NCBI RefSeq assembly: GCF_004297345.1
Contig: NZ_SCTN01000485.1
Location: 1-32,968, forward strand
From: Aquabacterium sp.
GTDB lineage: Bacteria; Pseudomonadota; Gammaproteobacteria; Burkholderiales; Burkholderiaceae_C
Direction: 5' to 3'
Length of the DNA: 32,968 nucleotides
A model generated the notes under the pieces. That model was not told the origin of the DNA and ran no database searches. It was given only the letters and a program-made list of their open reading frames with translations. Shown one piece after another: positions 6,364 to 20,682 of this stretch. Each line of letters opens with the position of its first letter. Position 1 is the first letter of the stretch. The position numbers and the translations under genes are program-made.

Positions 6364-6771
6364 TCAGCTTTCGGATGGCTCGGAATGATCGTTGAAATAT
6401 TGTTGCAGCAAGATGGCAGCCGAGGCCGCATCCAGATCGCGTGCGCCCATGGCGATGGCCTCGGTGGTCGAGTAACGCTCGTCCACCTCGTGCACGGGCA
6501 GATGGAATCGCCCGCGCAACTGCCCACCGAACTTGCGTGCGCGAACGGTATTGTCGTGCTCAGCGCCGTCAGGATGAAAGGGCACACCGATGACCAGCGC
6601 ATTGGGGCGCCACTCTTCGATCAATTGCCCGATCTGCTCGAAACGAGGCTTGCCTTCGGCCGCGATGGTGCGCAGCGGCTGGGCCTGGCGCGTGAGGCTG
6701 TTGCCCGTGGCCACGCCCACTCGCTTGAGACCGTAGTCAAAGGCGAGATAAGTCAGAACCGGCCCGCTCAT
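6364..6771 (-). CDS. ruvX: Putative pre-16S rRNA nuclease / Holliday junction resolvase-like YqgF (RuvX)
   Basis: 135 aa with LAFDYGLKRVGVATGN and VDERYSTTEA motifs. It overlaps the yqgE gene by 4 nt. Confidence 0.93.
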   Translation of the reverse strand: MSGPVLTYLAFDYGLKRVGVATGNSLTRQAQPLRTIAAEGKPRFEQIGQLIEEWRPNALVIGVPFHPDGAEHDNTVRARKFGGQLRGRFHLPVHEVDERYSTTEAIAMGARDLDAASAAILLQQYFNDHSEPSES

Positions 6772-7355
6772 GCGTGCCCGGCCTCGCCCATCAGGAAGTT
6801 GCGGTCGATGCCAAGCAGAGACAAAGCCTTGTCATAGCGTTGTTCAACCGGCGTATTGAAGATGATCTCGGGTTCAGCATCTACATTGAGCCACCCGTTG
6901 CGGCCCAATTCTTCTTCGAGCTGCCCGGCGCTCCAGCCCGAGTAGCCCAGGGTGATGAACACCTTACGTGGGCCGGCACCGTTGGACAACGCTTCCAGCA
7001 CATCGCGCGAGGTGGTCATCTCCAGGCCATCGGCGATCTTGAGCGTGGAGTTGTAGTGGCCGCCTTCCGCATCCAGACTTTCATGCAGCACGAAACCACG
7101 CTCGGTCTGAACCGGGCCACCAAAAAACACCGGACGACTAGCCAGATCCGATCGCTCCAGGCTCAGGTCAACCTTTTCGAAGAGCTTGCGCAGATTGATG
7201 TCAATCGGGCGATTGATGACCAAGCCCAGCGCACCTTTTTCGTTGTGCTCACACATATAGACCACCGCACCGGCAAAATTGCCGTCCTTCATCCCCGGCA
7301 TGGCGATGAGGAACTGGTTGGTCAGATTGATGGGGTTGGGCGCGCCTGCAGACAT
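6768..7355 (-). CDS. yqgE: YqgE/AlgH family protein (UPF0301)
   Basis: 195 aa, NQFLIAMPGMKDGNFAGAVVYMCEHNEKGALGLVINRP, GYSGWSAGQLEEEL. Confidence 0.93.
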   Translation of the reverse strand: MSAGAPNPINLTNQFLIAMPGMKDGNFAGAVVYMCEHNEKGALGLVINRPIDINLRKLFEKVDLSLERSDLASRPVFFGGPVQTERGFVLHESLDAEGGHYNSTLKIADGLEMTTSRDVLEALSNGAGPRKVFITLGYSGWSAGQLEEELGRNGWLNVDAEPEIIFNTPVEQRYDKALSLLGIDRNFLMGEAGHA

Positions 7356-7452
7356 CCCGCGATTTTAGACGCGCCAGCCCTGCCCGTTCATGCAGATTCC
7401 CGCATTTACCCACCAGCAACCCGTGCTTGCCGACCGAAGCGATACTCCTGAC

Positions 7453-9068: not shown

Positions 9069-10178
9069 TTAGAACAGCTCGACGTCGCCGACGTGCGTGT
9101 CTTCCGACTTCAGCACACCTTCACGCACCAGCGCCTCGTAACACAGCACTTGATTGCGCCCCTGGTGCTTGGCTTGATAAACGCCCTGATCCGCACGGGA
9201 GAAGGACACGTTGGGCGTGTCCTTGTGCTCGATCTCGGTGAAGCCCACGCTCACCGTCACCCGGTTGATCTGCGGGAAAGGATAGGACTCGACGTTCTTG
9301 CGGAAGCGCTCGAAAGCGCCCATGGCATCGACCTCGGTACCGCCACGCAGCAAGATCACGAATTCCTCGCCGCCAAATCGGTACAGGCGATCGTAGTGAC
9401 GGAATGACTGGCGCATGATGCGCGCCACCAGCACCAGCACTTCATCACCGATCAGGTGGCCAAAACCATCGTTGACCTTCTTGAAGTGGTCGATGTCCAC
9501 CACGCCAAGCCAGTAGCCTGTTGCAGGAACCGAGCGGCGCTCGCCGGCCGGCACCTGGTAGGCGTCCGCCGTAACAGGCATCGAGGCCTTCAGAAACGTG
9601 GCATCGAAGGTCTGACGGTTGAGCAGCCCCGTCAAGGCATCACGCTGGCTGGATTCCAGCAAATTCTGGAAGTTGCCAAACACCTTGAGCAAGGTTTGTA
9701 TCGGGCGCAAGGATTGCAGCGAGAGGGGCTTTTCAGACCAGACCTCCAGCACACCAGGCAAACCCACTTCGACCAGCAAAGGCAATACCGTCACGTGCCG
9801 CAAGCCAGGCTCGGTCACCTCTTCACTCAATTCGGCCTGCTCCAGCAAGCGCGAATCCAGCACAGAGGCACGCATGGGATAGGCCGCCAGAGGGGGCAAA
9901 GACTCCAGATCCACCCAGGGCGGATCACTGACCGTCAATTGACCACGCCTGGCCAGGCCGCTGCACAGCCAGTGCCGAGGTTCGTCGTCGCGACCGACCA
10001 GGCGGTACACGCCCACACTGGTCACCGACAACAACTCCAGCACCCCCTGAGCCAGCGACACATCCAGCATCTCGCGATCGCGCTGAGCAGTCAGGGCCGC
10101 CAGATGGGAAATGGCATCCTCCACGACCGGTTGCACGGTCACGTGGTGTGATGGAGGAGGTGTGGTGTGCGCCAACAA
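9069..10178 (-). CDS. Diguanylate cyclase (GAF-like sensor plus GGDEF domain)
   Basis: RFGGEEF active site and RHYD I-site five residues upstream; DALTGLLNRQTFD. The N-terminal ~170 aa is GAF-like. The exact start is uncertain: the track uses a TTG, with downstream GTG alternatives. Confidence 0.9.
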   Translation of the reverse strand: MLAHTTPPPSHHVTVQPVVEDAISHLAALTAQRDREMLDVSLAQGVLELLSVTSVGVYRLVGRDDEPRHWLCSGLARRGQLTVSDPPWVDLESLPPLAAYPMRASVLDSRLLEQAELSEEVTEPGLRHVTVLPLLVEVGLPGVLEVWSEKPLSLQSLRPIQTLLKVFGNFQNLLESSQRDALTGLLNRQTFDATFLKASMPVTADAYQVPAGERRSVPATGYWLGVVDIDHFKKVNDGFGHLIGDEVLVLVARIMRQSFRHYDRLYRFGGEEFVILLRGGTEVDAMGAFERFRKNVESYPFPQINRVTVSVGFTEIEHKDTPNVSFSRADQGVYQAKHQGRNQVLCYEALVREGVLKSEDTHVGDVELF

Positions 10179-10195: not shown

Positions 10196-13100
10196 TCAGG
10201 CCACCACCTCATGCAGAGCGGCATAGCGGCCCACCAGGGCCAGCAGCTCTTCTTCACCATACGGTTTGCCCAGGTAGTGGTTCACACCCAGTTCGGTCGC
10301 ATAGTCACGATGCTTCTGAGCAATACGTGAGGTGATCATGATGACGGGCAGATCAGACAATTTTTGATCCGCACGGATGTTGCGTACGAGGTCGAAACCA
10401 TCCATGCGGGGCATTTCAATGTCCGACAGTATCACTGCGGGGCGCTCTTGTGCCAGCAATTCGAGGGCTTCCAACCCATCTTTTGCGAGCATCACGCGAT
10501 AACCTTCACGAGCTAGCAGGCGCTGGGTCACCTTGCGCACGGTCAAGGAGTCATCAACGACCAGCACAAGCGGGGTCTGCGCCTCCGTGGACTCCGTCAC
10601 GGTCTTGGCCGTTGGCTTGTTGTTAGGCAGCAGCCAACCGTCGAGCTCCGAGCCCGCTGCGGCCAGTGCTTGCGTCGTCTGAGCCTGAGCGCGGTCACCG
10701 TACACGGTCGCCAAAGCCACCGGGTTGTAGATCAGCGACACGGCGCCCGATGCCAGCAGCGTCATCCCGGCCAGGCCAGGCAAGCGAGCCAGTTGCGGCC
10801 CCAGGTTCTTGACGACCACTTCCTGGTTGCCCAGCACTTCGTCGACGTGCAGCGCAATACGTTGCTGCGCCGAGCGCACGATCACGATCGGCAGGCTACG
10901 GCCACCTTCCATGCCGCGCGGACTGAAGTCCAGCAGCGAGCCCAGCCAGTAGAACGGCAGCACCAGATCGGCAAAGCCGTAGGAGCCTTGCTTGTAGGCC
11001 TGCTCAACCTCTTGCGGACGCGCGCGACGCACCATCTCGATCAGATGGGTTGGCACGGCGATGTTGATGGCGCCACAACGCAGCATCACCACCTTCGTGA
11101 CAGCCGTGGTCAGCGGCAGGATCAGCGTGAAGCTGGTGCCCTTGCCTGCCGAGGTCGCCGTTTCGATGCGACCGCCCATGGCGTTCACTTCGGATCGGAC
11201 CACGTCCATGCCGATGCCACGACCAGCCAGCTCGGTGACCGACTCGGCCGTCGAGAAGCCGGAGGTGAAGATCAGTTGAGACAGTTCGGCTTCGCTGGGC
11301 GTGTCATCCGGCAGCAGCAGGCCCATGGCCACCGCACGCTTGCGGATGCGCTCCAGGTTCAGGCCGGAACCGTCATCACGGAACTCGATGGCCACTTCGT
11401 TGCCCTCATGGCGCAGGGCCACGATGACCTGACCGGCGGCATCCTTGCCTGCGGCCGTGCGTGCAGCCGCATCCTCGATACCGTGGGTGATGCAGTTACG
11501 CAGCAAGTGCTCGAAGGAGCCTGTCATGCGTTCCAGCACGCCGCGGTCGATTTCCGTGGAACCGCCCACAATGTCCAGACGCACCTGTTTGCCGGTTTCC
11601 TTGGCCGCCTGGCGCACCACGCGGTACAAGCGATCAGACAGGCCGTCGAACTCCACCATGCGGGTGCGCAGCAGATCGTCCTGCAGGTCACGCGTCAGGC
11701 GGGCCTGGGCGGCCAACTGGTCTTCTGCCGTTTCAAGGTTGCGCTGCAAGGTGCGCTGCACGGTGGCCACGTCGTTCACCGACTCGGCCATCATGCGGGT
11801 CAACTCCTGGAATCGCGTGTAGCGGTCAAACTCCAGTGGATCGAAGTTCTGGCTCTGTGCACGGGCTGCTTCCATGCGGGTGCTCAGCTGGGTTTCAGCT
11901 TGCAACTCGATGTCACGCAGTTGTTGGCGCAGACGCTCCAGGTTGTCCGTCAGGTCGGTCAACGAACCGCGAATCTGCCCGACCTGCGATTGCAAGCGCG
12001 TGCGGGTGATACTGACTTCACCCGCGTGGTTGACCAGGCGATCCAGCAACTGAGGGCGCACGCGCACCACGGCTTGCGAAGGCGCATGGGCATGCTCGCG
12101 GTCCAGCCGCGCGGTCGGGCCTTGCGCGGCCCGAGGCAAGGTGCCCCAGTCGATCGGTGCCAGCTTGACCTCGGGTTGCTGGCGAGACGTGATCGGCGAC
12201 ACCACCTCGGATGCCACCTCAGGTGCAGCGACTTCAACCGGCGCTGCTGTCGATGGCTCGACAAGCTCGCGCGCTGGCGCCGCGCTCAAACGCTCAGGCG
12301 CGGCCACCACGGGCTCGGCTGGCGGCAAGTCGCGGTTGACCTGCTCGTCATAGCTTTGCGCATCATTGGCACGCAAGGCTTCGAACACTTCAACCAGCCG
12401 GTCGACGCGCCCTTCCAACGGGGCGATGTCGGCGTGCGTGATTTGATCGGACGCCAACAGGCGCTCGATCGTCGATTCCATTCGGTGAGCCAGTTCACCC
12501 AAACGCATGGCACCGGCCAGGCGTGCACCACCCTTGAACGTATGCAAGGTACGCATGCAGGCCGCCGCGGCCGCCGGGTGATCCGGCATCTCCAGCCACT
12601 GGCGCGTCTGGCTGGCCAATTGAGGCAGCAATTCCTGCGCTTCTTCCTCGAAAATCGGGAACAAGTCAGGATCGACGTTGTCCTGCGCATCGATGTCGGA
12701 CTCATCATCCCAATGCACCGGACCAGCCCCCGTCAGCGGCTGCGATGTCGACAGGCCTGATTGCAAGGGATCGGTATCAGCCGACAGGGGCGACAACTCA
12801 CGGAACTCGGCCACACCCAAAGGCGCAGGCTGGGTGACCTCGACCTCTTCAGCCGAGCGAACCAGGCGCAGGTGCGGGCGGGCATCCTCGACTGGCAGAT
12901 CACCCAGCTGAGAATCGCTCAAGACGATGGCTTCAGCGTCTTGCGGAGCTGGCGCAAAAGGATCGGTCTGTGCGTCGCTGGCGGCCTCGTCATCGAGGTC
13001 ACTGACCAGGCTACGCGCTTCGATGCGGCGCGAGGCGTCGTGGTCGTACCACTCCAGGCGGCGCATCAACTCATCTGATGGCGTCTTGAGGAAACCTGCC

Positions 13101-16100
13101 GCGAACTGATGCAGCAAGCGACGGATTTCTTCTGCTGCCTCGTTGAACAGGGCAGCGGCCTCGGTTTCGCCACCACCCAGCGCTTGCGAACGCATCAAGG
13201 CGTGCTCCAGCAAGCGGGCCAGTTGAGACAACTCGGTATAGCCCACGGTGCCGGAGTTACCTGCCAGCGAGTGCGCCAGCGCAATGGCCTCGTCGCTCAC
13301 AGGACGGTGCAACTCAAGCGCCCACTCGCCCAGCGCAGTGGACAAGCGGCGAGATTGCTCGTCTGCTTCGTTCAGGTAGATGTTGAACAGCGGGATGCTG
13401 ATGCGCAGCGGCCCCACCACCTTGACCTGTTCGTCCGCACTCTCTGCATCAGGCGAAGGATCGGCATCAACAGGCACATCGACCGCATCAAAGCCAGCGG
13501 GCTCGACAGGGATCACGACATCCAGATCGGCGGCCTGAGTGGGATCGTCATCGTCCAGGATCACGACCTCTTTGGGATCGGTCAGTTCGACCTCACCCAA
13601 TGGCGCTTCTTCAATCTGCTCATGCTCCGAATACAGCGCAGCAGGCGCGGACGGTGCGTGAATGGTTTCAACTTCGATACCGCTTGCCGCATCAGGCAGC
13701 ACAAGCTCATTGGCAGGAGAAGCCAGATCCAGCACGATCAACTCGTGATCGGGCACAGGCTCGGGCATCAGCGACTGAGGCTGAGTGTCAACCTCAGGCA
13801 AGGCATCCAGATCGAGAACGGTGTCTGACTCAGGGACGTCGATATCCAGCAAAGTGACATCGACATGAGGCAGCTCATGGACATCTTGACCAGACTGCGG
13901 CGGCAGATCAGGCAAGTCCAAATCGTCGAACGACAGTGTCTCGACAACCGGCAGGGACTCGGCCTTGATCTCGTCGACAGCCTGACCCAGGGAGGGCAAC
14001 TCCCAATCGGGCTCGGTGAAGGACTCGGTGAAAGCGGGGCGAGGCTCAGCCTGCAACGCAGGCGCCGGCTCGATCTCTTCTACGTCCGGCAGTTCGGGCT
14101 GAATCGGCTCGGCCAGTACTGCAATGACGGGCTCTGGCGGTTCTTCTGGCAGGCTCTCCGCCTCGGCTGCCGGCGCGGCACCCGTTTCAGCAATGGCACG
14201 GCGCTCACCGCGCAGGCGCAAGGCATCGGCCACATCGATCACAGGCTGAGCAGACCAACCCTTGTCCTGCTTGGCAGAGATGGCATCTGTCCACAGTGCA
14301 AAGTGGCCCAGCACATCAGCCGTCACGGCTTGCAGATCGGCACTGGCAGGCTCTTGCGATGCCAGCCAGGCGTTGTACATCTGCTCGCAAGCCCAACCAG
14401 CCTCGCCATACTCCTTGAGTCCCACCATGCGGGAACTGCCCTTGAGCGTGTGGAACCCGCGGCGCACGGCTGTCAGCGAACCCACATCATCGGGCTGTGA
14501 AGCCAGATGAACCAAGGCCTGCTGCATGTTGTCGATGACCTCGCGCGCTTCCTCCAGGAAGATGTCGCGCATTTCATCGTCTTCTTCCAAACCCGTTTCC
14601 TCAGGCGCAGCCGCAGCGGGCGCCAGAGACAGCGGCGCCTGCGGCGGGAACTGTGGCTCGGGCTGCAGGGTTTCGGCGTCAGACACCGATTGCGTGAAGT
14701 CGCTCAGCACCTGCGAGACCTGCTCGCGGGCAGCGGCCAGAGCCGTTTCGTCCTCGCTGGCCTGAGCGGATTCCAGAGCGGCCTGTGCCGCTGCCACGCT
14801 CTCGGCCAGCCCAGCCTGCTCCTGCACGTGCTGCGTGTCAGCCAGCTTCTGCAGTTGCTCGGAGACCTCGGTCAGGGAAGCGTCATCACGCTCCAGCACC
14901 TCGGCCACCTCTTCGGCCACCGCGTGTGCTTCCTCCTGCTGCACATGCTGCGCAACAAACTCTACCGGGTCAGCCTGGGTTTTTTTTTCCCGGCCCATCA
15001 CGGGCGCCAGCACGCCAGTGGCTTCGTCCATGGTGAACAGGGACTTGGCCAGCGCGGGCTGCACGCCCATCATGTCGATCAGGAAGCCCAGTGCGCCCAG
15101 ATTGGTAGCCAGGCGATCGAACACGCCATCCTGCGCAGCCTGATCCAGATCGGCATCAGGCACCAGCAGGTGATCCACGGCTTCGCGCATGCGCACGGTG
15201 GCGTGCGCCGCGACATCCAGGCCCAGCACGGCCAGCACGCCGCGCATGGATTGCAATTGCGAAGGCACATTGACCAGCGGGGTCACGTCCTTGGGATCGC
15301 GGAAGAACTGATCGATGTGCTTTTCGCAATCGCTCAGGGTGTTGCGCAACTCTTGCACCACACTGCCAATGGTCTGGCGATCGGAGACACGGCGATACAG
15401 CGCTTCCATCCAGGCTTCCAGCGGCTGGGCTTCATGGCCTTCGCTGATGTTCTGAATGCGCTGAGCCAGGCGCTGCACGCGCTGCTGCTGATCCGGATTG
15501 TCGAACTCGCCGTCCTCCAGCGAAGCTTCCAGGTAAAGCAGGCTGGTAGCCACTTCCATGGCCAACGCAGGAGCCGGTGCCTGAGCCGCCTGCACGGTGG
15601 TCTGCACGGCATGGGTCAAGGCATCAGCCAGCACCTGCCCGTCAGGGAACAGGCGGCGCAGGGAGTCGGCCACCAGCGAGAACTGCTCGTTCAAACCACC
15701 CAGGCGCAAAAGCTCGCCTGCCGCGACGGCAGACCAGCCATCCTTGGCACCGGCCACGCGCTTGAGGGCCTGTGCCACCCAGGCGGGGTCGTACTTGCCC
15801 AGCGCCGAGGCCTGCAGATCCACAGGCTTGTGGCGCTCCAGACCAAATGTGCGGCGCACACGGGCCAGCACGGAGTGCTCGGCAGCAGGCACATCAGAGG
15901 CCTGCGCGCAGAAGAACAGGAGTTCATTGGCCAGTCGGTCAGACGGCGTGGCGTTGCCCTTGACCAGCACACGCAACTGGCTGAGCAGTTGCGACAGCAC
16001 ACGCTTGGCGTGCACGGTCAGGGGCACATGGGCGCCGGCCAGACCTTCCAGGAAACCGCTGGCCAGCATCCACGTGGCCGATTCGCGGTGCGCGGATCGC

Positions 16101-16762
16101 TGCACGGCGCCACTGGCCAATGCGGCGCACAGATCGGCCAAAGCCACAGCATCAGCGGGCTGATTGCGCTTGAGCAGGTTCAGCAGGCCGGTTTCGAAAT
16201 CATCAACAGTGCGCGCATCGGCCGCACGGGCCGACACGTTCTCAGGCGGTGCCAGCGGCGCCTCCAGAGACAGATCAGGCCAGTCCTGCGACCACAGATC
16301 GGTGGGACGAGGCAACACACTGCCCACGCGGGCCATCAACGCCTCATATTGAGGAAACAGCGCCATGGCCGAAACAGGCTTGCCAGCCAGTCGGCGGCTC
16401 ACGTAATCGAGCAGCGCAAACGACGCCTTCTCGACGTCGCGCACCGCATCTTCGGTGATGGACTGTGGACGATTGACGAACTTCTGGACCACCGCTTCGG
16501 CGGCACGCAACAAGGTGGCACCAGCAGGCACACCAGCCAACTCCAGCGCACCCACACCCTGGTGGATCTGCTGACGGGCCGTGCGCAGGATCGCAGGGTC
16601 CATGGCGTCCATGTCGGACAGCCCGGCTGATGTCACATCCTTGAGGCAACGATGCAGCGCCTTGTGTGCCGAGTCCAGCGACTTGCGCAGTTCCTCATGC
16701 ACCCAGGCCAATGCACTGAGGTCGTCAGATGGCGAGGGATCGTCGTGGTGCAAGCTGTCCAT
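10196..16762 (-). CDS. chpA: Pil-Chp hybrid chemosensory histidine kinase/response regulator (ChpA/PilL)
   Basis: 2188 aa. FimL-like N-terminal region; several Hpt segments (FHTLKGSSRMVGL, AHSLAGNSGTVGY, LHTFKGGARLAGA); CheA dimerisation (LLDRLVNHAGEVSITRTRL), HATPase and CheW-like domains; C-terminal REC (LVVDDSLTVRKVTQRLL...SDIEMPRMDGF). Adjacent to pilGHIJ. Confidence 0.95.
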   Translation of the reverse strand: MDSLHHDDPSPSDDLSALAWVHEELRKSLDSAHKALHRCLKDVTSAGLSDMDAMDPAILRTARQQIHQGVGALELAGVPAGATLLRAAEAVVQKFVNRPQSITEDAVRDVEKASFALLDYVSRRLAGKPVSAMALFPQYEALMARVGSVLPRPTDLWSQDWPDLSLEAPLAPPENVSARAADARTVDDFETGLLNLLKRNQPADAVALADLCAALASGAVQRSAHRESATWMLASGFLEGLAGAHVPLTVHAKRVLSQLLSQLRVLVKGNATPSDRLANELLFFCAQASDVPAAEHSVLARVRRTFGLERHKPVDLQASALGKYDPAWVAQALKRVAGAKDGWSAVAAGELLRLGGLNEQFSLVADSLRRLFPDGQVLADALTHAVQTTVQAAQAPAPALAMEVATSLLYLEASLEDGEFDNPDQQQRVQRLAQRIQNISEGHEAQPLEAWMEALYRRVSDRQTIGSVVQELRNTLSDCEKHIDQFFRDPKDVTPLVNVPSQLQSMRGVLAVLGLDVAAHATVRMREAVDHLLVPDADLDQAAQDGVFDRLATNLGALGFLIDMMGVQPALAKSLFTMDEATGVLAPVMGREKKTQADPVEFVAQHVQQEEAHAVAEEVAEVLERDDASLTEVSEQLQKLADTQHVQEQAGLAESVAAAQAALESAQASEDETALAAAREQVSQVLSDFTQSVSDAETLQPEPQFPPQAPLSLAPAAAAPEETGLEEDDEMRDIFLEEAREVIDNMQQALVHLASQPDDVGSLTAVRRGFHTLKGSSRMVGLKEYGEAGWACEQMYNAWLASQEPASADLQAVTADVLGHFALWTDAISAKQDKGWSAQPVIDVADALRLRGERRAIAETGAAPAAEAESLPEEPPEPVIAVLAEPIQPELPDVEEIEPAPALQAEPRPAFTESFTEPDWELPSLGQAVDEIKAESLPVVETLSFDDLDLPDLPPQSGQDVHELPHVDVTLLDIDVPESDTVLDLDALPEVDTQPQSLMPEPVPDHELIVLDLASPANELVLPDAASGIEVETIHAPSAPAALYSEHEQIEEAPLGEVELTDPKEVVILDDDDPTQAADLDVVIPVEPAGFDAVDVPVDADPSPDAESADEQVKVVGPLRISIPLFNIYLNEADEQSRRLSTALGEWALELHRPVSDEAIALAHSLAGNSGTVGYTELSQLARLLEHALMRSQALGGGETEAAALFNEAAEEIRRLLHQFAAGFLKTPSDELMRRLEWYDHDASRRIEARSLVSDLDDEAASDAQTDPFAPAPQDAEAIVLSDSQLGDLPVEDARPHLRLVRSAEEVEVTQPAPLGVAEFRELSPLSADTDPLQSGLSTSQPLTGAGPVHWDDESDIDAQDNVDPDLFPIFEEEAQELLPQLASQTRQWLEMPDHPAAAAACMRTLHTFKGGARLAGAMRLGELAHRMESTIERLLASDQITHADIAPLEGRVDRLVEVFEALRANDAQSYDEQVNRDLPPAEPVVAAPERLSAAPARELVEPSTAAPVEVAAPEVASEVVSPITSRQQPEVKLAPIDWGTLPRAAQGPTARLDREHAHAPSQAVVRVRPQLLDRLVNHAGEVSITRTRLQSQVGQIRGSLTDLTDNLERLRQQLRDIELQAETQLSTRMEAARAQSQNFDPLEFDRYTRFQELTRMMAESVNDVATVQRTLQRNLETAEDQLAAQARLTRDLQDDLLRTRMVEFDGLSDRLYRVVRQAAKETGKQVRLDIVGGSTEIDRGVLERMTGSFEHLLRNCITHGIEDAAARTAAGKDAAGQVIVALRHEGNEVAIEFRDDGSGLNLERIRKRAVAMGLLLPDDTPSEAELSQLIFTSGFSTAESVTELAGRGIGMDVVRSEVNAMGGRIETATSAGKGTSFTLILPLTTAVTKVVMLRCGAINIAVPTHLIEMVRRARPQEVEQAYKQGSYGFADLVLPFYWLGSLLDFSPRGMEGGRSLPIVIVRSAQQRIALHVDEVLGNQEVVVKNLGPQLARLPGLAGMTLLASGAVSLIYNPVALATVYGDRAQAQTTQALAAAGSELDGWLLPNNKPTAKTVTESTEAQTPLVLVVDDSLTVRKVTQRLLAREGYRVMLAKDGLEALELLAQERPAVILSDIEMPRMDGFDLVRNIRADQKLSDLPVIMITSRIAQKHRDYATELGVNHYLGKPYGEEELLALVGRYAALHEVVA
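14980..14988 (-). other. A9 homopolymer (in-frame A_AAA_AAA slippery heptamer) inside chpA
   Basis: The minus strand reads ATG GGC CGG GAA AAA AAA ACC CAG GCT GAC. The -1 frame reads AAC CCA GGC TGA. Confidence 0.6.
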
Positions 16763-16778: not shown

Positions 16779-19118
16779 TCAGGAAGCGATCTTGAATCGG
16801 GCCACCGATTGCTGGAGTTCGTTGGCGGTACGGGACAACTCACGCACCAACTGCGTAGTCGAACGGGTACCTTCACCGGTCTGCTCGGTCACGGCGAAAA
16901 TGTGCTGGATGTTGGCCACCACCACGTTCGCCGATTCGGCTTCACGCAAGGCTTGCGAGGAAATCTGCTCAATCAGCTCGGCAAGGCGGCGTGACACGCG
17001 GTCGATGTCGCCCAGCGCGGAACCGGCGGCGTCAGACAGTCGGGCCCCTTCCACCACACCCTGCGTGGAGCGTTCCATAGCGGCCACGGCATCTTGCGTG
17101 TCAGTCTGAATGGTACGCACCAACGCAGCAATTTCACGGGTCGCATCGCCGGAACGTTCAGCCAGACGCTGCACTTCTTCGGCCACCACAGAGAAGCCGC
17201 GACCGGCTTCACCCGCAGATGCCGCTTGAATGGCGGCGTTCAAAGCCAGCACGTTGGTCTGCTCGGTAATGTCAGAAATCAGCTCGGTGATTTCGCCGAT
17301 TTCCTGAGAAGACTCACCCAGTCGCTTGATGCGCTTGGAGGTTTCCTGGATCTGCTCACGGATGGTGTTCATACCGCCGATGGCGTTCTGCACGGCAGCC
17401 AGACCGGAGTCAGCGGCGGCCAGCGATTGGCGCGCCACCTCGGCGGAGTGCTGGGCTTGCGCGGACACCTCGTTAATGCGGCCGGCCATCTGCAGCACCG
17501 ACTCACCGGTTTCGCGGATCTCGCGCAGTTGCTCGTCAGATGCGGCCAGCAGTTCGGTCGACGTGGTTTCCACCTCACCGGTGGTTTCCGTCACCCGTTG
17601 CACCGTGCCTTGCACTTGCGACACCAGGTTACGCAGCTCTTCCACCGTGAAGTTCACCGAGTCGGCGATGGCGCCGGTGATGTCTTCCGTCACGGTTGCT
17701 TGTTGCGTCAAGTCACCTTCAGCGACCAGTTGCAGTTCGTTCATCAGTCGCAGAATGGCCGCCTGGTTGGCGTCGTTCACGCGCTTGGCTTCGCGCTCCA
17801 TGCGCTCGGCTTCCTGCCGCTGTTGCTCAGCGATCTGACGACGGTGCGTTTGATCGGTCACGAACACACGGAACAGGCCGTAGGCCGAGGCCACGGTCAC
17901 CAGCAGCGACACCAGAATCATGGCCACGTTCAGGCCACCGATGCCAGCGCCCTCGGTCAGCTTCTGCTGCACGGTCTCCAGGCCCTTGCGCAGAGGCTCG
18001 GAGTCATCGATCACCGCCACCTGAGCATCACGCGCAGCCACCAGGCCTTGCAGCGAACCCAGGATGAAGGTCGATTGCGTGCGGGTGCGTTCGAAGATTT
18101 TCAGCAGGGCTTCCAGCTGCTCACGCACAGCCGGATCCTTGGAGGCCACCAGCTTCAACTCGCCATTGCCGTTGAGCATGCCTTCGGCGATTTCCTTGAA
18201 GGCGTTCAAGTCCTTGCCCAGCAGGAACACGGCCTCGGTCGACACGCCTTCCACGGTCAGGAATTCGTTGGCCGACTTACCGATACGCTGCGTCAGCATC
18301 ACCAACTGGTTGAGCGACGACATTTCAGAGGAAGACACACCGCCCTTGTCGATCTTGGTCGAGGCGATACCTTCGGCCAGATCCAGCAGTTCGGACGACT
18401 GGCTGTTGACTTCACGCAGGGCCTGGCTCACCTGAGTCAGGGTCTGCTTCTGCTTCAACACGTAGTCGGCGTTCTTCTCGGCGCGGTCTACCAGAGGCAG
18501 CAGCTTGGTCAGCTCTTCCTTAGCAGCGCCATGCACTTCGCTCAGACCCAGCTTGGCGTCGCCCTTGTCCAGACCACGCACGTTGCTGGCCAGCACCTTG
18601 GAGCTATCGGCCACTTCGCCGAAAGCCTGTGCACGACCGATCAAAGCCTGCGAGACCGACTTCGCCAGACGTTGCGACTGCATCAGCGCCTGACCGGTTG
18701 CCCCGGTTTGCGCGGCGCGACGGTCTGCGGAGGTCACCGACAGGAAGGCCGACAAGAGCAGGCCCACCATGCCGACACCCAAGGCGCCGCCGATGAAGCG
18801 CTGCTGTTTGTCCAGGCGCCACTGACCGATAACGGGCAGGCCGGTCTGGGGCTCCAGCAAAGCGTTGGGCGTGTCAACAGCCTCGTTCTTGAGCCGGTTG
18901 TCGTGATAGTCGGGCGGGAACTCGGAAGGCGCAGCCTCCGAGATGATCGAGTCCGACGTGATCGTGCTGCCCGGCTGAAGGGTTGAAGGCGCAGCCTGCG
19001 TGTCCACAGACTGGGCACCCGAGGACGTGACCATCCCTTCGGTGCTCAAGGCTTCCGACTGGACCTCCTCGTCGTCCTGTGTTTTGCCCAGGTCCTTGAT
19101 TCGACTCAGGAAACTCAT
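16779..19118 (-). CDS. pilJ: Twitching-motility methyl-accepting chemotaxis protein PilJ
   Basis: Two TM segments, an MCP signalling domain ([43 protein letters not shown]) and the ending VARFKIAS. The start [10 protein letters not shown] at 19118 is preferred over the track start at 19133. Confidence 0.94.
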
Positions 19119-19169
19119 GTCCTTACACTCCAAACAGTCAGCTGTGACAGCCAGACGGGGTTGAGCCCG

Positions 19170-19712
19170 TCAAACATCAATTTTCAAAAAGGCCTCGTCA
19201 GCCACCAGGCTGGCCAGGTCGAGTTCGTACCAGGTGCGCCCTTGCACGTCGTTCAATTGCTGGCCGATGAAATGGGGGCTGGGCGCGCCTGAACCTGCCT
19301 CAGCGGGCGTCAGGGCACTGGCGTTACGCAAACCCATCAAGCGATCGATCAGCAAGGCTGCATTCATTTGCAAACCCGAGTTGAAGGCGATCAGGCGGCC
19401 GGCATCGCGTGCGGCCACTTCGGCCAGGTTGCGGGTCTGGCGCTGCGGCAAGCCCAGAAAGGCCGCCATGTCGATCACACCGTGCAACTGCCCACGCAGG
19501 TTGGCCACACCCAGGAACCAGTCCTGGCTATGAGGCACGGGCTGAATGGTGGACAGCGGGAAGATTTCGCCCGCTTGATCCAGCGACAGCAAAAAGCCGT
19601 GACCGGCGATCTCGACGGCCAGCCAGCTGCGAGCAGGCGCCTGCTGGCGCACCATCTGCAGACGATCTGCCAGACGTTGCTGCAACTCCCTCAGGGCTTC
19701 TTTATTGGCCAT
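19170..19712 (-). CDS. pilI: CheW-like chemotaxis adaptor PilI
   Basis: 180 aa with a CheW domain (FLLSLDQAGEIFPL...FLGVANLRGQLHGVIDMAAFLGL). It sits between pilH and pilJ. Confidence 0.9.
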   Translation of the reverse strand: MANKEALRELQQRLADRLQMVRQQAPARSWLAVEIAGHGFLLSLDQAGEIFPLSTIQPVPHSQDWFLGVANLRGQLHGVIDMAAFLGLPQRQTRNLAEVAARDAGRLIAFNSGLQMNAALLIDRLMGLRNASALTPAEAGSGAPSPHFIGQQLNDVQGRTWYELDLASLVADEAFLKIDV

Positions 19713-19753
19713 CTGGATGCGCTCTCTTGTTCTTTCTTCTTACCCTGCCGATC

Positions 19754-20119
19754 TCAGCCGAAGGCTTTGATCTTGGACAGCAGTTCTTCAGGATTGACCG
19801 GCTTGACCACGTAATCACGTGCGCCCTGGCGCATGCCCCAGACGCGGTCGGTCTCCTGGTTCTTGCTGGTGCAGATGATGACCGGCACGTTGGCAAACGA
19901 CGGATCGCGCGTGATGGCGCGCGTCAACTGGAAACCATTCTGACCGGGCATGACCACATCCATGAGGATCAGGTCGGGCTTTTCTTCCTGCAGACGGCGC
20001 ATGGCTTCTTCGCCGTTCTCGGCCGTTTTCACCTGGTAGCCCTTTTTCGTGAGCAACTCGGACAGCACGTGCAGTTCGGTCTTGGAATCGTCAACCAGCA
20101 ATATTTTCTGAATAGGCAT
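19754..20119 (-). CDS. pilH: Response regulator PilH
   Basis: 121-aa single REC domain (ILLVDDSKTELHVLSELL...LILMDVVMPGQNGFQ...VVKPVNPEELL). SD GAGGAG upstream. Confidence 0.93.
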   Translation of the reverse strand: MPIQKILLVDDSKTELHVLSELLTKKGYQVKTAENGEEAMRRLQEEKPDLILMDVVMPGQNGFQLTRAITRDPSFANVPVIICTSKNQETDRVWGMRQGARDYVVKPVNPEELLSKIKAFG

Positions 20120-20217
20120 TTCAACTCCTCAGTGCACGCTCGTTTTGGCTTTCAGCCAGCCGGCGCACACACATTATTCACCCTGTCAGACAGACAGGCT
20201 TACAGGCTCTGTTGCAC

Positions 20218-20616
20218 TCAACCGGCGCTGTATTGCGCCACGGCCTGCAGCAATTGGTCTTTGGTAAAAGGCTTGGTCAGGTAATCCTGCGATCCCACCA
20301 TGCGCCCGCGCGCCTTGTCAAACAGACCATCCTTGGAGGACAGCATGATCACCGGCGTGCTCGTGAAACGGGGGTTTCTTTTGATGATGGCGCAGGTCTG
20401 ATACCCGTCCAGACGGGGCATCAAAATGTCACAAAAAATAACATCTGGATTGTGGTCATTGACCTTCGAGAGCGCGTCAAAACCATCTTCGGCCAGCACG
20501 ACTTCATATCCACCCTGTTTCAGGAAGATTTCCGCACTGCGACGAATGGTGTTGCTGTCGTCAATGACCAGCACTTTGGTTGCCGCCTTCACTTCGGGGC
20601 TATCTGCTTCAGACAC
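20218..20616 (-). CDS. pilG: Response regulator PilG
   Basis: REC domain (KVLVIDDSNTIRRSAEIFLKQGGYEVVLAEDGFDAL...FCDILMPRLDGYQTC). A GTG start at 20616 is preceded by a GGAGGA SD; the ORF track extends to 20664. Confidence 0.92.
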   Translation of the reverse strand: MSEADSPEVKAATKVLVIDDSNTIRRSAEIFLKQGGYEVVLAEDGFDALSKVNDHNPDVIFCDILMPRLDGYQTCAIIKRNPRFTSTPVIMLSSKDGLFDKARGRMVGSQDYLTKPFTKDQLLQAVAQYSAG

Positions 20617-20682
20617 GGACGCGTTCCTCCAGACTGTCAGAGCCCTCGTCAGGCCCTGAACCAATTCAATTCGATCAAGGAA

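Follow-up and report, generated by a model that had tools for sequence, protein, structure and literature searches.

Aquabacterium sp. (Burkholderiales) carries an unbroken run of nine A residues within chpA, and this raises the question whether the run simply encodes two lysines or also gives rise to a second, shorter protein of the size of FimL, which in Pseudomonas aeruginosa is homologous to the first 563 residues of ChpA (PMC3019171). The run lies in a window of 32,968 nt, the whole stretch of DNA analysed here, which is part of a genome of 4.63 Mb and contains a type IV pilus chemosensory cluster on the minus strand. The chpA product comprises Hpt (three stretches), HATPase_c, CheW and Response_reg domains, with H-kinase_dim slightly below the cut-off. 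An earlier note on this DNA had read the run as a dnaX-like slippery site within chpA, and on re-reading, the sequence, coordinates, phase, both stops and the 597-residue -1 product that it gave were all found to be exact (Table 1).

Table 1. Features of the chpA locus, in window coordinates
Feature	Position	Strand	Remarks
chpA, hybrid CheA-type kinase	10196-16762	-	intact open reading frame, 2188 codons (2188 aa)
FimL-like N-terminal region, residues 1-594, body of the proposed short product	14981-16762	-	AlphaFold2; stand-alone homologue
Predicted disordered linker, residues 591-600, contains the run	14963-14992	-	AlphaFold2, pLDDT <50
A9 run, proposed slippery site	14980-14988	-	GAA AAA AAA A; holds in-frame A_AAA_AAA
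TGA closing the -1 frame (one A inserted)	14970-14972	-	read AAC CCA GGC TGA; three codons (NPG), 597 aa
TAG closing the +1 frame (one A deleted)	14962-14964	-	read CCC AGG CTG ACC CGG TAG; five codons (PRLTR), 599 aa
pilJ, upstream of chpA	16779-19133	-	
pilI, CheW-like, upstream of chpA	19170-19712	-	
Response regulator of a pilH-/pilG-like pair (pair listed in that order)	19754-20119	-	
Second response regulator of the pilH-/pilG-like pair	20218-20628	-	
Upstream pil gene block as a whole	16779-20682	-	

The run is read as E592 GAA (14989-14987), K593 AAA (14986-14984) and K594 AAA (14983-14981), followed by ACC, and the heptamer A_AAA_AAA is in frame in the window and in all 17 genomes of the genus that carry a run. 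The TAG closing the +1 frame is created by a rare codon, GTA at V600. With respect to stimulators, the earlier statement that no AGGAG-type motif lies upstream held, whereas the hairpin it had pointed out downstream (14938-14956) was unremarkable (z = -0.90) and not conserved. An AGGAGG motif (14937-14932, minus strand) is located about 30 nt beyond the -1 stop and 11 nt ahead of an in-frame GTG (14920-14918); the pair (14918-14937) could permit a restart giving ChpA without its N-domain, but the motif is altered in near relatives.

The whole genome contains four A9 runs, one of them in chpA and the remaining three in what look like intergenic regions, and within the window the chpA run is the sole run of seven or more A. 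The same site was also the only one with A7 or longer in the predicted genes of the window and of twenty 20-kb neighbourhoods, being occupied in 15 of these 21. The number of A9 runs in relatives' genomes ranged from none to about a dozen, and a genome of 5.4 Mb (G012) has none besides that in chpA. Twenty further sites of A9 or longer were inspected and appeared intergenic, a status judged by frame and third-position GC without a gene caller; genome-wide counts of coding A9 runs are based on pattern searches and inspected samples.

A chpA match was obtained in 39 of 42 genus genomes. A8 or A9 is present at the site in 17 of the 39, which fall in two supported clades; the other 22 show AAG AAG, partly broken runs or no Lys pair, and the sister lineages have AAG AAG. 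Of the isolates, Aquabacterium commune DSM 11901 carries A9 in chpA and A. parvum B6 carries A8. The earlier note had asked whether the run, its phase and the -1 stop are kept while flanking codons vary, and had regarded AAG-encoded orthologues as speaking against recoding. In the 17 genomes the three features are indeed kept and AAG is not used; in the 22 others the run is absent, and for these the objection holds. Among 366 conserved degenerate N-terminal columns of the 17 run genomes, 29 use one codon throughout, and 26 of these codons end in G or C. The only three that end in A are consecutive and correspond to E592 GAA, K593 AAA and K594 AAA. Codons adjoining the run vary silently in the same genomes, with three codons each for G590 and R591. 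AAA makes up 17% of the Lys codons in the sampled neighbourhoods (554/3235), and a two-state model fitted on 70 other conserved Lys columns gave a chance of about 5e-5 for a conserved Lys to remain AAA in all 15 genomes tested; as this model ignores site-to-site variation, the empirical rate of all-AAA conserved Lys columns elsewhere, 1/70 or 1/80 in two counts, is the safer figure. Two changes on the tree suffice to explain the run state, so that the evidence lies in its retention and not in repeated gain. Its retention at silent sites extends across species, one of the features looked for in truncating programmed slippage of the Thermus thermophilus dnaX type.

No A or T run of at least seven was found near the boundary in 68 chpA genes from other genera of the family. 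Shortened chpA frames in this family (G097, G183, G094, G158, G163, G159 and G131) were considered as natural frameshifts and rejected, since they were not seen broken at the run; several of them are cut by contig ends. In one further genome (G045, a single contig, L173), chpA is broken at several places, for which sequencing error and decay are both possible reasons.

A -1 stop within nine codons combined with a +1 stop within five codons was found in 16 of the 17 run genomes versus 2 of the 22 genus genomes lacking the run, with distance thresholds chosen after the data had been seen and related genomes that do not count as independent. The near -1 stop is present in all 17, and it is the near +1 stop that is missing in one genome. 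At other N-terminal positions, near stops in both frames occur at a rate of 2%. When the amino-acid sequence was held fixed, the chance of both stops lying this near was 0.002-0.026 in the clade of the window, compared with about 0.1-0.2 for the A8 clade and 0.25-0.53 for other lineages; the signal is therefore clearest in the window's clade. Throughout the near clade V600 is kept as GTA, a codon used at <2% of conserved Val positions; among the 413 Val columns conserved in this clade, only 2 have GTA in every genome. The other such column, in five near genomes, is codon 161, counted stop to stop, in 6771-7364 (minus strand).

The AlphaFold2 model of the N-terminal region (53 relatives; mean pLDDT 86.6) is folded and mostly helical, with high confidence mostly up to about residue 590; after the linker, more helices are predicted, then the first Hpt near residue 730. 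The slippery codons would thus sit in a predicted linker behind a folded domain, in agreement with the truncation point between N-terminal region and first Hpt that had been suggested from the reading frames. A relative of the same family (G140), which also has a full chpA, encodes a stand-alone ChpA-N homologue with 44% identity; counted from the likely ATG, this protein is about 593 aa long. It stops about 14 residues beyond the last conserved block, the same boundary as that marked by the run in chpA. Its gene (L166:1957-3879) adjoins a selenide,water dikinase-like gene and not pil genes. Residues H67-Q68 (H67 at 16562-16564, minus strand) are invariant across 53 ChpA N-domains, this stand-alone protein included. 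A search of the genus genomes with the ChpA N-terminal query revealed no separate FimL-like gene, and Pfam, NCBIfam and PDB searches by sequence or fold gave no FimL model or structure match; what they did return were weak hits to CheA P1 (Hpt) bundles.

From the pattern of conservation we consider recoding at the run, whether by polymerase or by ribosome, to be likely, and with somewhat less assurance we favour the view that the A8/A9 run is a selected, truncating transcriptional-slippage site from which a ChpA-N of 597 or 599 residues is made. RNA polymerase would stutter on the run and generate a mixed mRNA pool. Messages with the templated number of A residues, or differing from it by multiples of three, would encode full-length ChpA, and translation of the remaining ones would end a few codons further on, whichever of the other two frames was entered. 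The resulting short product would comprise all of the FimL-like N-terminal domain and lack the Hpt, kinase and receiver domains. Polymerase slippage is preferred over a -1 shift of the Escherichia coli dnaX type because the +1 stop is kept as well and no stimulator is conserved. Such a ribosomal shift needs only a -1 stop, usually together with stimulators. The idea of recoding to a FimL-sized protein, as first put forward for this site, is well supported by the comparative evidence, and its ribosomal mechanism less so than slippage. Genome-wide data from E. coli indicate chiefly insertions at such runs (PMC5574713), so that the deletion frame may matter little, even though insertions of two residues also enter that frame. 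We infer that slippage probably occurs and, by analogy with FimL, that the short product may work in the Chp pilus system, either as a partner like FimL or as a competitor. More tentatively, one chemosensory kinase gene could set the ratio of full kinase to detached N-domain by slippage and so replace the division between chpA and fimL in Pseudomonas, a possibility to which we would not yet commit.

A programmed -1 ribosomal frameshift on A_AAA_AAA, giving the 597-residue product and leaving the +1 stop as incidental, agrees with the in-frame heptamer and near -1 stop of all run genomes. A genus genome encodes both Lys tRNAs, CUU and UUU, and since AAG would weaken the shift, its avoidance would be accounted for; for the same reason AAG avoidance alone cannot decide between polymerase and ribosome. 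No Shine-Dalgarno-like motif was found, however, in the 49 nt preceding the run in 15 run genomes, the downstream folds of these 15 differ without a conserved hairpin, the fold in the window being the unremarkable one noted above, and neither the kept near +1 stop nor the conserved rare GTA is explained, which makes a ribosomal shift unlikely. It is less probable still that the codon pair AAA AAA slows or pauses translation at the domain boundary and so aids folding, without any frameshift. Rare Lys codons that directly follow a folded domain and fall within a linker predicted to be disordered would suit such a role, but this reading leaves unexplained the preceding GAA, the near stops in both frames and the exact, unbroken A8/A9, such runs being missing from other sampled genes.

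Two further explanations dispense with a function in recoding. The A-rich EKK motif may have been retained by chance in two clades, inherited without selection, as would be compatible with the two changes required on the tree and the AAG AAG of sister lineages. Yet silent sites nearby vary while the three codons of the run do not, the modelled probability per Lys codon is very low, and the run and the close stops occur together; we regard this as very improbable. Finally, the run might be a contingency locus, with tract-length mutations toggling chpA between an on and an off state within the population. Runs of A9 may be hypermutable, and genes for pili belong to those known to vary in phase (PMC1088944, PMC3711429), but all 39 matched genus genomes, sampled at one genome per species, have an open frame at this site, with no off variant, and A8 and A9 are both arranged so that the frame stays open. 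Phase variation, which the earlier note had offered as an option, is accordingly disfavoured, and we give it hardly any credence. Transcriptional slippage remains the preferred reading.

Downstream, a GGDEF gene (9069-10178, minus strand) starts about 17 nt after chpA and has a homologue in 20 of 20 sampled genus neighbourhoods; early stops arising from slippage in chpA could reduce its expression via polarity.

Functional slippage sites that merely truncate are hard to spot by comparison and were hence omitted from the main genome survey (PMC1088944). In the GC-rich freshwater genus studied here, the signature at silent sites is unusually clear, and the gene concerned is neither mobile nor dnaX. 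If the proposal is true, a signalling kinase joins the short list of bacterial slippage genes, and a route is suggested to a FimL-like short form without gene duplication. The mechanism as such is already known; the gene, its setting and the comparative signature appear to be new. A literature search that covered few subscription papers found slippage described for neither chpA nor cheA.

Compared by its published description, FimL of P. aeruginosa resembles the proposed product in having about the size of a ChpA N-terminus. In parallel with the Chp system it promotes the synthesis of cAMP and the function of pili, and Gln is reported to occupy both of its putative phosphoacceptor sites (PMC3019171). 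FimL is encoded by its own gene, whereas the Aquabacterium short form would derive from chpA itself, and the Aquabacterium N-domain has the invariant H67, a possible counterpart of one of the FimL sites. Slippage in genes of surface apparatuses yields two length variants in Shigella spa33 and mxiA and in Yersinia pseudotuberculosis tssM3 (PMC5009743, PMC4256274); these are secretion-system genes, whereas chpA encodes a chemosensory kinase and the evidence for it comes from conservation in 17 species, not from experiment. E. coli dnaX shares with chpA an in-frame A-rich heptamer (X_XXY_YYZ), a near -1 stop and a short product. It has stimulators, however, while for chpA no Shine-Dalgarno-like stimulator was found upstream and no conserved hairpin or other structure downstream, and the +1 frame of chpA is closed as well. 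In Thermus thermophilus dnaX, polymerase slippage on an A9 run with stops in both non-zero frames produces the short gamma subunit (PMC5009743, PMC1088944). Gene and organism are different, some genomes of the genus have A8 and not A9 in chpA, and slippage at chpA is a prediction from sequence. Nevertheless, chpA has the same layout, an A run of about 9 nt within one long open gene and near stops in both other frames (16/17), where frame 0 specifies the long product and the near stops of the other frames would specify a short N-terminal one.
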